A stretch of 64,000 bases of DNA from positions 113,975 to 177,974 of the IMG/VR virus record IMGVR_UViG_3300031669_000002; one strand, given 5' to 3'. Of the stretch, positions 19,744 through 24,341 are shown one piece after another; within the stretch, counting starts at the first letter, position 1; the number at the start of each line of letters is the position of its first letter. A program made the translations under genes and the position numbers. The notes beneath the pieces were generated by a model. That model searched no databases. It worked only from the letters and a program-made list of their open reading frames with translations, and had not been told where the DNA came from. Source of the stretch: a virus.

Positions 19744-19956
19744 ATGAAACAATATAAACTTACATCGGCAGATTTTGTATTGCCGGGAGAATCACTAGAA
19801 CCAGATGCATATATGTCTGCAGAGGACTTAGCATCAATTAAAAAACAAAATGAGTTATCTGGTTTTTTACATCAACAGATTGCAGATAGGCTTGCTAATC
19901 CTGTTGATCTTCCAGAAGCAAATACTATAATTATTAGAGAGCAAAAATATGAGTAA
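19744..19956 (+). CDS. small protein upstream of terminase, unknown
   Basis: 70 residues, helical (SAEDLASIKKQNELSGFLHQ). It overlaps the first terminase gene by 8 bases, so the two are probably translationally coupled. No homologue recognised. Confidence 0.5.
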   Translation: MKQYKLTSADFVLPGESLEPDAYMSAEDLASIKKQNELSGFLHQQIADRLANPVDLPEANTIIIREQKYE

Positions 19957-20611
19957 GATGCCGACAGAATCAGTATTGGTTAAGACACCACATAAAACTG
20001 AGTTCTATTCTCATCAGCACGTAGAAGAATTTATGAAGTGTGCAGATCCAATAACTGGACCTAACTATTTTATGACTAACTTCTTCTACATTCAGCATCC
20101 AACTAAGGGTAGATTGAAGTATGCTCCGTTTCCTTATCAGGTTCATTTGGCGCAATCATTTCACGAATATAGATTTAGTGTTAATCTTCTTTCCCGTCAA
20201 TTAGGAAAAACAACTACAGCAGCAGGTTACTTGCTATGGTATGCAATGATGATTCCTGATAGCACGATCTTAATTGCAGCTCACAAATATACGGGCGCAC
20301 AAGAAATTATGCAACGTATTCGTTATGCGTATGAGTCAGTTCCCGATCATATTCGTGCTGGTGCAACAACCTACAACAAGGGAAGCATTGACTTTGATAA
20401 TGGTTCAAGAATTATTTCAGCTACAACTACAGAAAACACCGGTCGAGGATTATCAATATCATTATTATACTGCCTGGGTGGCGAAACAACTGTAAAAATT
20501 AGAGACAAAACTACATTGGTAGAAGAAGAAATATCTTTACAAGATTTGTATATCAGGCTATCTAATCCCGACAAAGTTCTAAATGACGAATTTGCATTCG
20601 TACATAAATAA
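19949..20611 (+). CDS. 17: terminase large subunit, N-terminal fragment fused to N-intein 1
   Basis: 220 residues. Residues 1-174 are the N-terminal part of a gp17-type packaging ATPase: Walker A SRQLGKTT at 82-89, then DSTILIAAHKYTGA and TTENTGRGLSISLLY, ending just before the Walker B aspartate. At Cys175 an intein N-half begins (CLGGETTVKIRDKTTLVEEE; block A), 46 residues long. The last residues, NDEFAFVHK, repeat the Walker B sequence DEFAFV that properly belongs to the next fragment. The stop codon is part of a late promoter octamer. Trans-splicing with the product of 21506 would join LLY to CDEFAFV. Motor of DNA packaging once assembled. Confidence 0.9.
   Translation: MSKMPTESVLVKTPHKTEFYSHQHVEEFMKCADPITGPNYFMTNFFYIQHPTKGRLKYAPFPYQVHLAQSFHEYRFSVNLLSRQLGKTTTAAGYLLWYAMMIPDSTILIAAHKYTGAQEIMQRIRYAYESVPDHIRAGATTYNKGSIDFDNGSRIISATTTENTGRGLSISLLYCLGGETTVKIRDKTTLVEEEISLQDLYIRLSNPDKVLNDEFAFVHK
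20603..20610 (+). promoter_or_regulatory. late promoter CATAAATA that also encodes the end of the N-intein gene
   Basis: The codons CAT AAA TAA end the upstream gene as His-Lys-stop and at the same time form the late promoter of the nuclease gene, whose ATG follows 5 bases later. Confidence 0.75.
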
Positions 20612-20615
20612 GTAT

Positions 20616-21524
20616 ATGAAAACTAAATTACAACAATTTAAAGAACGAAACAGAAAACGCAATGCCCATTTATACATTGATGGGCTAATAGAAGGGTACG
20701 ATTATGTAGTTTGCCCTATTAGCAAGGAACGAATGAGTATGATTAAGAAATCATATATAACAAATGTGTTGGGTATTACAGAAGATGAATACCCAAATAT
20801 ACAGCGAGTTTGTCTAAAGAGGAAAGAGAATATTAAATCTGGGTTAAAACAAATTGATCTGGAAACTGGATTGACTAAACATGAGCTTAGTGTAGAAAAA
20901 GCAAAAGAAGTATTATCGGAAATTGGTAAAGATGGTATGTCGGGCTATGACCGCAAAGGTAAAAAGACTCGTGCCACGCATATGGCCAATATTGATGAAC
21001 TAGGCAGGCATGGATATAGGCGGCAAGCAGATGCAAGGTTAACTACTCTTTTACCCAATGGACTTACAGTAGAAGAAAATGCACATCAGAAACAAAAAGA
21101 ATCAATGCTAAAAAATCACTCTACTGGGTCTGGCGGTGCAAGTAAAATTTCTAAAAAAGTTCTAGCGCCGGTGATTACATTGCTCGAAGCGAACAATCTA
21201 AAATATTACTTTGATAAACAAGAATATGGCATTAAGGACGCAGATACGGGCAATTATTATTTTTATGACCTAACTATTCCAGAATTACACATTGCAATTG
21301 AATATCAATCTGCCGCATGGCACTCTAACCCAGTATGGAAAGACAGTGTGTGGCAACAGTGGGCACCACCAAAAGGAAAAAGAAAAACTGCTAATGAATC
21401 GCTTGAATATGATTATAACAAAGCACGATCGCTGTATAAACATCGTAATATAGTTACGCATTATGTATGGGAAGATACCGTTGATGCAGACGTAGAGAGG
21501 ATATTATGTTTGCTGAAAATGTAA
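20616..21524 (+). CDS. Vsr/EDxHD-like free-standing homing endonuclease in split intein 1
   Basis: 302 residues from the ATG just after the late promoter; the longer in-frame start at 20583 lies inside the previous gene. The C-terminal domain YYFDKQEYGIKDADTGNYYF, YDLTIPELHIAIEYQSAAWH, SNPVW resembles the very-short-patch-repair endonuclease fold (E/D...IEYQS...WH), the family described for nuclease genes lying between split-intein halves. N-terminal half has the repeated modules seen in the protein at 62832 (for example IDELGRHGYRRQADARL). Presumably cuts intein-free or differently split terminase genes. Overlaps the intein C-half gene by 19 bases. Confidence 0.8.
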   Translation: MKTKLQQFKERNRKRNAHLYIDGLIEGYDYVVCPISKERMSMIKKSYITNVLGITEDEYPNIQRVCLKRKENIKSGLKQIDLETGLTKHELSVEKAKEVLSEIGKDGMSGYDRKGKKTRATHMANIDELGRHGYRRQADARLTTLLPNGLTVEENAHQKQKESMLKNHSTGSGGASKISKKVLAPVITLLEANNLKYYFDKQEYGIKDADTGNYYFYDLTIPELHIAIEYQSAAWHSNPVWKDSVWQQWAPPKGKRKTANESLEYDYNKARSLYKHRNIVTHYVWEDTVDADVERILCLLKM

Positions 21525-22234
21525 ACTACGAAATCTTAACTCCCGACGGATGGCGAGATTTCCGTGGGATTACCATGACAGAGAATAAGATAACCTCGAC
21601 GGTTATCTTAGACAATGGGATCTCAATTTCTGCAACTGATAATCACTATTTCTTTTTAGATGGACAAAAAATACAACTTAAAGATATTGTTGTAGGTAAT
21701 AAATTTGATACCGTTAATGGTAAGGCAACAGTTCTTTCAATTAATACCAACAAAGCAGAATGTGTATATGATATTGTTGAAGTAGATCAGCAAGAACATA
21801 AGTTTATAATTAATGATTCTATTATCACAAAGAATTGTGATGAATTTGCATTCGTAAGAAACACAATTGCGAAAGAATTTTGGACTTCAATTTCTCCAAC
21901 ATTATCAACAGGTGGTAAGGCAATTATTACATCAACTCCAAATAGTGATGAAGATCAATTTTGGGATATCTGGACAAACGCAAACAAGACGCTAGATGAA
22001 TTCGGGAATGAACAAGAGTTAGGAAAAAACGGATTTAAGGCATTCAAGGCACTGTGGCCCGAGCACCCAGATAGAGATGAAAAATGGGCAGCAGACGAAC
22101 GAGGTAGAATTGGAGACGAGCGTTTTCGTCGAGAACACGACTGTCTGAGCGCAAAATCAATCATAACATTGCAAGACACAACAGGCAAAATATTTGATAT
22201 AAATATTGGCGATTTCTTTGATCAGCATAAATAA
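21506..22234 (+). CDS. 17: C-intein 1 + terminase middle fragment + N-intein 2
   Basis: 242 residues. 1-110: intein C-half (YEILTPDGWRDFRG, block B ATDNHYF, block F VYDIVEVDQQEHKF, ending ITKN, with Lys instead of the usual His before the terminal Asn). 111-212: terminase middle part starting CDEFAFV (Walker B Asp-Glu), then ITSTPNSDEDQFWDIW (ATPase coupling motif) and ALWPEHPDRDEKW, ending RREHD. 213-242: N-half of a second intein (CLSAKSIITLQDTTGKIFDI), 30 residues, again ending His-Lys. A GAGAGGA ribosome site precedes the ATG. The protein must splice at both ends. Confidence 0.9.
   Translation: MFAENVNYEILTPDGWRDFRGITMTENKITSTVILDNGISISATDNHYFFLDGQKIQLKDIVVGNKFDTVNGKATVLSINTNKAECVYDIVEVDQQEHKFIINDSIITKNCDEFAFVRNTIAKEFWTSISPTLSTGGKAIITSTPNSDEDQFWDIWTNANKTLDEFGNEQELGKNGFKAFKALWPEHPDRDEKWAADERGRIGDERFRREHDCLSAKSIITLQDTTGKIFDINIGDFFDQHK
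22226..22233 (+). promoter_or_regulatory. late promoter CATAAATA at the end of the second N-intein
   Basis: Second case in which CAT AAA TAA closes an intein-half gene; the nuclease ATG is 37 bases downstream with an AGAGAGA ribosome site. Confidence 0.75.
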
Positions 22235-22270
22235 CTTTGCATAATAACGATTTTAGAGAGAACATTAAGT

Positions 22271-23275
22271 ATGGGCGCAGCTTATAGAGAATCAAAATTA
22301 GACAATAATCGATATTGTAAGTCAAACGGTCAATTTACTCGACATCTTCGGTTAAACAACTTAACATACCAAGAATATTTTGAAAAATATATAACCAAGA
22401 CCAGCCCAAAATGTCAATGCGGTAAGCCACTAACTTTTTATCAGAAAACCGAATCATATGCCAATAGTTGCGGTATCCCAAAATGTGTAGGCAAAACAAT
22501 AAGTATTGTTCGACAAAACACACCAATCGAAGCAAAACAAAAACAAGCAGAAAATTATAGACAAGCACAATTCAACAAGACTACAGAACAAAAGAAGAAA
22601 CAGAAAGAAAAGGCAGCAGCAACATATTTTAAGAATTTTGGGACTACCACGTCAAACTCTCCTGTACAGAAAAAGAAATCGGCGCAGACAAAACTACAAA
22701 AATATGGAGATGAAAAATATAACAACAGTCAAAAAAGTGCAGATAAGAATAGAAACAAATCAATTGAAGAACAAGATGCAATTAATGAATCTCGACGAAA
22801 AACTAATATTGAAAAATATGGTGTTTCTTGTGTATTTTTATTGCCTAACAATACCAGAAAATCAAATAAAGGTAATGCATCGATTAAAGATTATGTAATG
22901 CCAAGTGGTGTTAGGGTCGGGGTAAGAGGATACGAGCCAACAGTAATATCAATATTACTTAATCAAAGACACATAGATGATATAGTTATTCAAGACGCCT
23001 ATTCAGATTGTAAGATTGGACCATTTACTTATAGTATGATAAATAGACATACTGCAAACTATTATCCAGATATCTATATACCGTCAGAAAATAAAATCAT
23101 TGAAGTCAAAAGTAGATGGTGGTGGGACGGAAACGGAAAAGAAAAGTATAAATCGAGATTATTAAATAATCTAAGAAAAAGAAAAGCGGTATTAGATAAA
23201 GGATACATATACGAAGTCTGGCTATTTGAAGATAAGAAAAATTATAAGGTTTTAATAGATGACTCAGATTTTTAA
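22271..23275 (+). CDS. PD-(D/E)XK-type homing endonuclease in split intein 2
   Basis: 334 residues. Two Cys pairs near the N-terminus (CQCGK, CGIPKC) suggest a zinc ribbon, followed by very basic repeats with the NUMOD-like phrase TKLQKYGDEKYNNSQK / NIEKYGVSCVF. The C-terminal domain has YYPDIYIPSENKIIEVKSRW, the PD...(D/E)xK catalytic signature. Lies exactly between the two halves of intein 2 and overlaps the C-half gene by 17 bases. Different in sequence from the nuclease in intein 1, so the two breaks were invaded independently. Confidence 0.8.
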   Translation: MGAAYRESKLDNNRYCKSNGQFTRHLRLNNLTYQEYFEKYITKTSPKCQCGKPLTFYQKTESYANSCGIPKCVGKTISIVRQNTPIEAKQKQAENYRQAQFNKTTEQKKKQKEKAAATYFKNFGTTTSNSPVQKKKSAQTKLQKYGDEKYNNSQKSADKNRNKSIEEQDAINESRRKTNIEKYGVSCVFLLPNNTRKSNKGNASIKDYVMPSGVRVGVRGYEPTVISILLNQRHIDDIVIQDAYSDCKIGPFTYSMINRHTANYYPDIYIPSENKIIEVKSRWWWDGNGKEKYKSRLLNNLRKRKAVLDKGYIYEVWLFEDKKNYKVLIDDSDF

Positions 23276-24341
23276 ACCAAACACAGAACAATATAAAGTT
23301 CTTACTCCAACAGGATTTCAACATTTTTCGGGAGTATCATTGATGACTTATAAATCAATGATTAGACTCAATTTTGAAAACGATAAATTTATTGATTGCA
23401 CTGCTGATCACAGAATCTATGTGTCTGACATTAAATCTAAGCAGGCATGTAGATTGCGCCGTGGTGAAGAAGTGCTAACAATTGACGGAAGTGTCAAATT
23501 ACTGAATAAGGTAAAATTAAAGGATAAAGTTCCTGTATATGATCTGATTGGTGTCGAAAACGGAGCAAGATTTTACGCTAATTCTCTTCTTGTTTCCAAT
23601 TGCGAGCCAATCATATTTGAAGAGACTCTTATTAATGCAGTTAAATTATCAACGCTAGTAGAAAAAGATCCAGTTGAGAAACAGGGGCAAGTTAGATGGT
23701 ATAAAACTCCTAAGAAAGGCTGCACTTATCTAATTGGATTAGATCCAAGCTTAGGCACTGGTGGAGATTTTGCGGCAATGGAAATAATCGAACTCCCGTC
23801 GATGGAACAAGTAGGAGAATGGCAGAATAACAAGACTCCCATTCAAGCGCAGATTAGGCTATTACGTGACATCACTGATTATATATTTGATATAACAGGC
23901 AACACAAAGAATATCTATTACAGTGTAGAAAATAATACACTTGGTGAAGCAGCATTGGTGGCAATAAGCGAAATAGGGGAAGAGAACATTAAGGGATATT
24001 TCCTAACAGAGACTCTTAAAGCAGGTTCTTCTAGATCATATAGAAAAGGATTTACTACGACTGCTAAATCTAAGCTTACGGCCTGCTCCAAAATCAAACA
24101 GTTAATAGAGACAGACCGCATCACTATAAATAGTAAAAACCTAATTAGCGAACTTAAAACGTTTGTTGCAAGCGGAAACACATACAATGCTAGATCTGGA
24201 GACACAGACGACTTAGTTTCTGCACTACTTCTAACAACAAGAATGATGCAAACGATGCAATCTTACGATTTAGAGTTAGATACTCGTATGAGAGGCACAG
24301 ATGAGCCAATAGTTATGCCACTTCCATTCCTAATGGGATAA
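23259..24341 (+). CDS. 17: C-intein 2 + terminase C-terminal (nuclease) fragment
   Basis: 360 residues. 1-114: intein C-half (NTEQYKVLTPTGFQHFSG, block B CTADHRIYV, block F VPVYDLIGVENGARF, ending LVSN). From Cys115: terminase C-part CEPIIFEETLINAVKL, then the RNase H-like nuclease motifs IGLDPSLGTGGDFAAM, YYSVENNTLGEAAL and GDTDDLVSALLL (three acidic sites). The spliced terminase would be 174+102+246 = 522 residues, a normal size for gp17 relatives. The C-half resembles the AceL-TerL type of atypically split intein. Confidence 0.9.
   Translation: MTQIFKPNTEQYKVLTPTGFQHFSGVSLMTYKSMIRLNFENDKFIDCTADHRIYVSDIKSKQACRLRRGEEVLTIDGSVKLLNKVKLKDKVPVYDLIGVENGARFYANSLLVSNCEPIIFEETLINAVKLSTLVEKDPVEKQGQVRWYKTPKKGCTYLIGLDPSLGTGGDFAAMEIIELPSMEQVGEWQNNKTPIQAQIRLLRDITDYIFDITGNTKNIYYSVENNTLGEAALVAISEIGEENIKGYFLTETLKAGSSRSYRKGFTTTAKSKLTACSKIKQLIETDRITINSKNLISELKTFVASGNTYNARSGDTDDLVSALLLTTRMMQTMQSYDLELDTRMRGTDEPIVMPLPFLMG

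Follow-up and report, generated by a model that had tools for sequence, protein, structure and literature searches.

How does a phage obtain a working packaging motor when its large terminase (TerL) is spread over three genes? The question is raised by the window analyzed here, a stretch of 64,000 nucleotides (positions 113,975 to 177,974 of IMG/VR virus record IMGVR_UViG_3300031669_000002, a contig of 177,974 bases), in which five plus-strand ORFs, all intact and overlapping or adjacent, fill positions 19949-24341 (19949-20611, 20583-21524, 21506-22234, 22271-23275, and 23259-24341). In order, they encode extein 1 with an intein N-half; a first nuclease; a C-half, extein 2 and a second N-half; a second nuclease; and a C-half with extein 3. 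Extein 1 (19949-20470, plus strand, as are all window features below; 174 aa) is the N-terminal part of the ATPase with Walker A, ends at the Walker B strand (..LSISLLY), matches PF03237 and the TerL PHROG, and is 82-84% identical to its counterparts in the environmental relatives L003 and L005. Extein 2 (21836-22141; 102 aa) begins with CDEFAFV, and its whole ORF matches phrog_36964 at 4e-23. Extein 3 (23601-24338; 246 aa) begins with CEPIIF and constitutes the nuclease domain (PF17289, 1e-6).

Joined, the exteins give exactly 174 + 102 + 246 = 522 aa, which match both PF03237 (Terminase_6N ATPase, 5e-19) and PF17289 (Terminase_6C RNaseH-like nuclease, 2e-6), the two domains that together mark a gp17-type TerL, as well as the TerL PHROG phrog_36964 (4e-111). 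An earlier note on this DNA had described a gp17-type TerL in pieces of 174, 102, and 246 residues, broken in the Walker B strand (LLY/CDEFAFV) and ahead of the nuclease domain (CEPIIF); coordinates, lengths, and Pfam and PHROG matches bear this out, and homology agrees with both break positions. As the note proposed, the joined exteins were aligned to TerL proteins: Pseudomonas phages PA5oct and MIJ3 have an uninterrupted TerL that is 57.6% identical and colinear over joined-extein residues 4-521, with no residue missing. A PF03237 search of the contig, which is possibly incomplete, found no second TerL besides the pieces of this locus. Judging from sequence comparison, it is highly likely that TerL is divided here among three genes and that two short-N split inteins, which house putative homing nucleases, unite their products into a 522-residue gp17-type motor; joining after translation would very probably be required to package DNA.

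Intein halves at the two breaks

At the first break (site 1, Walker B), the intein N-half (20471-20608) has Cys at position 1 and a core of ~38 aa (46 aa in the ORF), and aligns with more than 45 site-1 N-halves and with the contiguous inteins L118 and L181. The first ORF ends in a non-intein tail, NDEFAFVHK, that overlaps the extein-copy DNA and the CATAAATA promoter described below. The 110-aa C-half (21506-21835), whose start codon falls within the 3′ end of nuclease 1, carries TxxH, the block F His and a terminal Asn (KN end), and matches at 1e-41 a profile of relatives' inteins in which contiguous inteins were included. At the second break (site 2, the linker to the nuclease domain), the N-half (22142-22231; 30 aa) is 70% identical to that of L003, and the 114-aa C-half (23259-23600) starts within the 3′ end of nuclease 2, contains TxxH and matches the relatives' profile at 4e-18. 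In the window and L003, intein 2 has a penultimate Ser (Ser-Asn end) and Ala for the block F His, which the other ten aligned site-2 C-halves retain; in both (window positions 23402-23600), the Ala is accompanied by an altered extein start, CEPII. Of these two histidines, block F and penultimate, several published inteins lack one. Site 2 is presumably the position of the AceL intein (extein context CEFLG).

The earlier note's reading would have fallen had the flanking segments proved not to be intein blocks. Both C-halves match CatC (PDB 6dsl), a consensus atypical intein and their best PDB match, at 5e-7 (intein 1) and 4e-8 (intein 2). Each intein pairs a short N-half with a C-half that includes block B TxxH, the layout of atypical split inteins, and C1, TxxH, terminal N/Q, and +1 Cys are invariant across 49 site-1 and 23 site-2 split inteins, those of the window included. 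The window halves align end to end with contiguous inteins at both TerL positions (L096, L118, and L181 at site 1; L139 at site 2), from which it follows that the two halves of each pair are one intein. An AlphaFold model of the contiguous L118 intein (pLDDT 92) retrieves with Foldseek a list headed by PDB inteins at ~1e-7, including VidaL and gp41-1; the modeled fold is HINT for this contiguous homologue, as distinct from the window halves themselves. A Pfam Intein_splicing search of the contig found neither intein, and another Pfam search gave this family only weakly, below cut-off, so that library alone would miss both.

The three pieces might instead act unspliced as a non-covalent complex, as do the split Aeh1 NrdA and phage 25 gp43, phage enzymes that are functional without ligation (PMC2988022). 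Such a complex could accommodate break 2, which is located at a domain linker, and an intein 2 lacking its block F His, but break 1 interrupts the Walker B strand and the splicing residues with their +1 Cys are invariant. The +1 Cys is moreover strongly linked to site-1 occupancy, being present in 52 of 53 occupied alleles vs. 22 of 64 empty ones (p = 3e-14), where Ala or Leu mostly takes its place. Purifying selection also acts on intein halves whose nuclease has been lost: between the window and the nuclease-less L003, dN/dS for intein 2 is 0.12 (N-half) and 0.086 (C-half). We consider an unspliced complex very improbable, and infer for the window phage two protein trans-splicing reactions that would join the three products into one 522-residue motor.

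Split terminases in relatives and cultured phages

Four scans of viral contigs yielded 127 distinct environmental TerL genes with mappable architecture, with inteins at three positions: site 0 at Walker A (RQ.GK/), site 1 at Walker B (LLY/CDEF), and site 2 at the nuclease-domain junction (/CEF). All three sites are empty in 51 of these genes, 22 are split at site 1 alone, and about a dozen are double-split; L204 is split at all three sites and thus comprises four gene pieces, as does its contig pair L087/L088. Two more triple splits came from a fifth scan: L237, and L240 on a 235-kb contig (L240:3546-8322), whose TerL also holds a contiguous intein, several hundred residues long and located ahead of TPNG. 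In another gene, a further C-half-like match ending SHN/SGKSYIC.. sits at the P-loop (L022:12079, L123:8933, L190, and L006:8366). Occurrence of the same architecture in independent metagenomes indicates that the locus is no assembly artefact.

Split TerL genes are also found in cultured phages. In Salicola phage SCTP-2 (MF360958, 440 kb; L302, L303, L304), TerL consists of three genes on both strands, more than 35 kb apart: extein 1a with an N-half at 429.5 kb (minus strand), a C-half with extein 1b and an N-half at 256.7 kb (plus strand), and a C-half with the remaining TerL, which includes a contiguous intein, at 216-218 kb (minus strand). These pieces, of which only one is annotated as terminase, join gap-free at the site-0 and site-1 positions through two split inteins. 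Campylobacter phage CPX (JN132397; L306:4339-5055, L308:1501-2829) has a singly split TerL, with intein halves at FIDE/C, in two genes ~22 kb apart on opposite strands. Since the pieces are scattered in propagated phages, RNA cis-splicing is ruled out for SCTP-2 and CPX, and protein trans-splicing is nearly unavoidable. It is scarcely credible that an assembly artefact, or an intron of group I or II, lies behind the window's own interruptions. The TerL of a Campylobacter phage related to CPX is described with an intein plus an intron (PMC3322345), but intein blocks flank each interruption, many independent metagenomes hold the same architecture, and SCTP-2 has its pieces on opposite strands, separated by tens of kb. 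An Rfam search of the region for group I/II introns matched no family. Support for the earlier note's three-gene TerL with two split inteins, each enclosing a nuclease gene, thus comes from homology, from the conserved splicing residues, from the fold modeled for a contiguous sister intein, from selection on the halves, and from the dispersed pieces in one cultured relative.

The relatives also suggest how such loci may change. In L003, a 9-residue remnant, KVLSDDSDL, resembling the nuclease 2 C-terminus is fused to the N-half; shorter nuclease pieces are retained in L011, L035, and L072, and a piece of nuclease 1 in L010 and L174. These remnants show that the nuclease can decay while the TerL split persists. 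The split inteins L172 and L133 have near-identical contiguous counterparts in L118 and L181, respectively, which read through the former start Met, as if re-fused from halves. Splitting as an irreversible ratchet was considered and dropped, as contiguous sister inteins retain the internal start Met. Synonymous divergence shows inteins to have moved horizontally between diverged terminases: L133 and L181 have identical intein DNA with an extein 2 dS of 0.76, and in L172 and L118 dS is 0 for the N-half, 0.03 for the C-half, and 2.0 for extein 2. L090 and L124 are near-identical loci save for a swapped block comprising the nuclease C-domain and the C-half, a natural module exchange. In the cycle that we propose, the nuclease in each split intein would cut intein-free TerL alleles, and recombination would then spread the intein-nuclease unit; splits accumulate independently at the three TerL sites, the nuclease can decay while the split stays, and halves can re-fuse into a contiguous intein.

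Nuclease genes and an extein copy at a probable late promoter

The nuclease families differ between the two sites of the window TerL. Nuclease 1 (20616-21524; 302 aa; weak PvuRts1I-like_N match, 0.039) starts at 20616 rather than 20583, according to homologue alignment, and shares its N-domain with HNH-type relatives. Nucleases of this type (n1-type) have a common N-domain and a C-terminal domain that is either Vsr-like or HNH; that of nuclease 1 is probably Vsr-like, with a conserved motif E..D..EYQS.AWH and weak Foldseek matches to AbaSI/PvuRts1I from a poor structure model (pLDDT 73). Vsr-like (EDxHD) nucleases reportedly occur in about half of published fractured-gene loci. Nuclease 2 (22271-23275; 334 aa) belongs to DUF7487 (PF24308, 5e-27), is PD-(D/E)XK-like by motif, and has homologues in the site-2 splits L093, L163, L179, L186, L219, and L220. 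In most loci, 36 of 49 for site 1, the nuclease ORF runs into the beginning of the following TerL piece, which may couple the translation of that motor piece to that of the nuclease.

Immediately upstream of nuclease 1, positions 20582-20602 are identical at 18 of 21 nt to the first 21 nt of extein 2 (p = 0.003, dinucleotide shuffles), making this extein copy a mimic of the homing site and a putative operator. It is followed by a late-promoter-like CATAAATA (20603-20610), 5 nt ahead of the nuclease 1 start; another CATAAATA motif lies upstream of nuclease 2 (22226-22233), and TATAAATA/CATAAATA is found at the same offset in relatives. The motif [TC]ATAAATA, a probable late promoter, is strongly strand-biased in the window (18 plus, 2 minus) and frequently precedes ORF starts by 4-5 or 16-18 nt. 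A promoter-ATG spacing of 4-5 nt was initially taken as peculiar to these nucleases and was dropped because other ORFs in the window share it.

An 18-nt extein copy is present in 37 of 51 site-1 split loci; ATAAATA follows it at offset 0 in 27 of the 37, and the ATG of the nuclease usually comes 4-5 nt later. The copy occurs in all three frames relative to the intein (26/8/3), and at most positions its wobble nucleotides are at least as conserved as the extein's own, which together indicate that the copy is kept as DNA and not as protein. No copy precedes the n1-type nuclease of L173, and none was clear at site 2 of the window's clade or at the MIJ3 PolB. In AceL-type site-2 loci, L160 has a weaker copy (17/21, p = 0.01), the only significant one, and L156 and L162 are suggestive; junction-like DNA encoding FECEFIG (L156 and L160, more degenerate in L162) is followed by TATAAATA-like DNA and then the nuclease ATG.

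A precedent is the operator of I-TevI in phage T4, where a homing-site-like sequence (15/20 identity) overlaps the late promoter upstream of the nuclease ORF (PMC2988022). The layout is the same in the window, with 18/21 identity at a late promoter, although I-TevI is an intron nuclease and the window copy precedes a split-intein nuclease for which binding and repression are predictions from sequence. By this analogy, we infer that the extein copy and late promoter may form an operator limiting nuclease 1's own expression. It is quite possible, and we propose it tentatively, that split-intein nucleases of jumbo phages would repress themselves through a copy of half the homing site at a late promoter. 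Given that each such gene runs into the following TerL piece, they would also tune the supply of a motor built by two or three successive trans-splicing events. The operator idea has exceptions in L173, site 2 and the MIJ3 PolB, where the copy is lacking, and the 4-5 nt spacing between promoter and ATG, which implies a nearly leaderless transcript, also counts against it. The copy could also be a mere fossil of the nuclease gene's entry into the intein, as its location exactly at the nuclease gene boundary and the persistence of a degenerate copy in the nuclease-less L010 and L174 would suggest. A drifting fossil would not be expected to stay conserved from one diverged locus to another, at synonymous sites too and whichever of the three frames it is in, nor to adjoin the late promoter at offset 0 in most loci that have it, and we regard this origin as less likely than not.

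Known systems and implications for phage biology

To our knowledge, published fractured-gene loci have one break each, unlike the window TerL, which is broken twice (three times in relatives) and has a different nuclease family at each site. Each break otherwise has the composition outlined for fractured genes by Dassa et al. (2009), namely a conserved phage enzyme, a split intein, and a free-standing endonuclease gene between the halves. The atypical split inteins AceL-TerL, GOS-TerL, and Cat, with N-halves of 25-37 aa and C-halves of ~104-115 aa (PMC11766414), have the same short-N, long-C design as those of the window; the TerL cases described are single split inteins, to which the window adds a distinct site-1 split intein at Walker B. 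Mycobacteriophage TerL is an intein hotspot where inteins cluster by ATPase motifs, and in the available portion of that study the inteins assayed were cloned contiguous and no double split is reported (PMC5050341). In the related Pseudomonas phage MIJ3, a split PolB intein has an HNH nuclease gene between its halves (PMC6892783), differing from the window TerL in the gene affected, in its single split, and in having no extein copy ahead of the nuclease.

Fractured genes, split inteins in TerL, and inteins in TerL generally are thus already known (PMC11766414; PMC5050341; PMC6892783). In the literature searched, whose scope did not extend to Dassa et al. (2009), no description was found of a natural gene with two or three trans-splicing events, or of an extein copy at the promoter of a split-intein nuclease. 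The earlier note had called the double-split TerL unusual and, to its knowledge, undescribed; the second part stands within that literature, and the first must yield to the double and triple splits that recur among relatives.

An essential packaging motor that would come into being only through two or three successive protein ligations takes the idea of genes in pieces to an extreme. The locus set provides many natural split-intein pairs, necessarily orthogonal within one protein, and identifies cultured phages in which trans-splicing is directly testable. Intein nucleases, like intron nucleases, may have evolved autorepression, as the extein copy beside the nuclease promoter suggests. A single gene may reveal both the homing cycle of inteins and how split ones originated, since the relatives preserve intermediates: empty sites, splits with a nuclease, splits without one, and contiguous inteins that retain an internal start codon.
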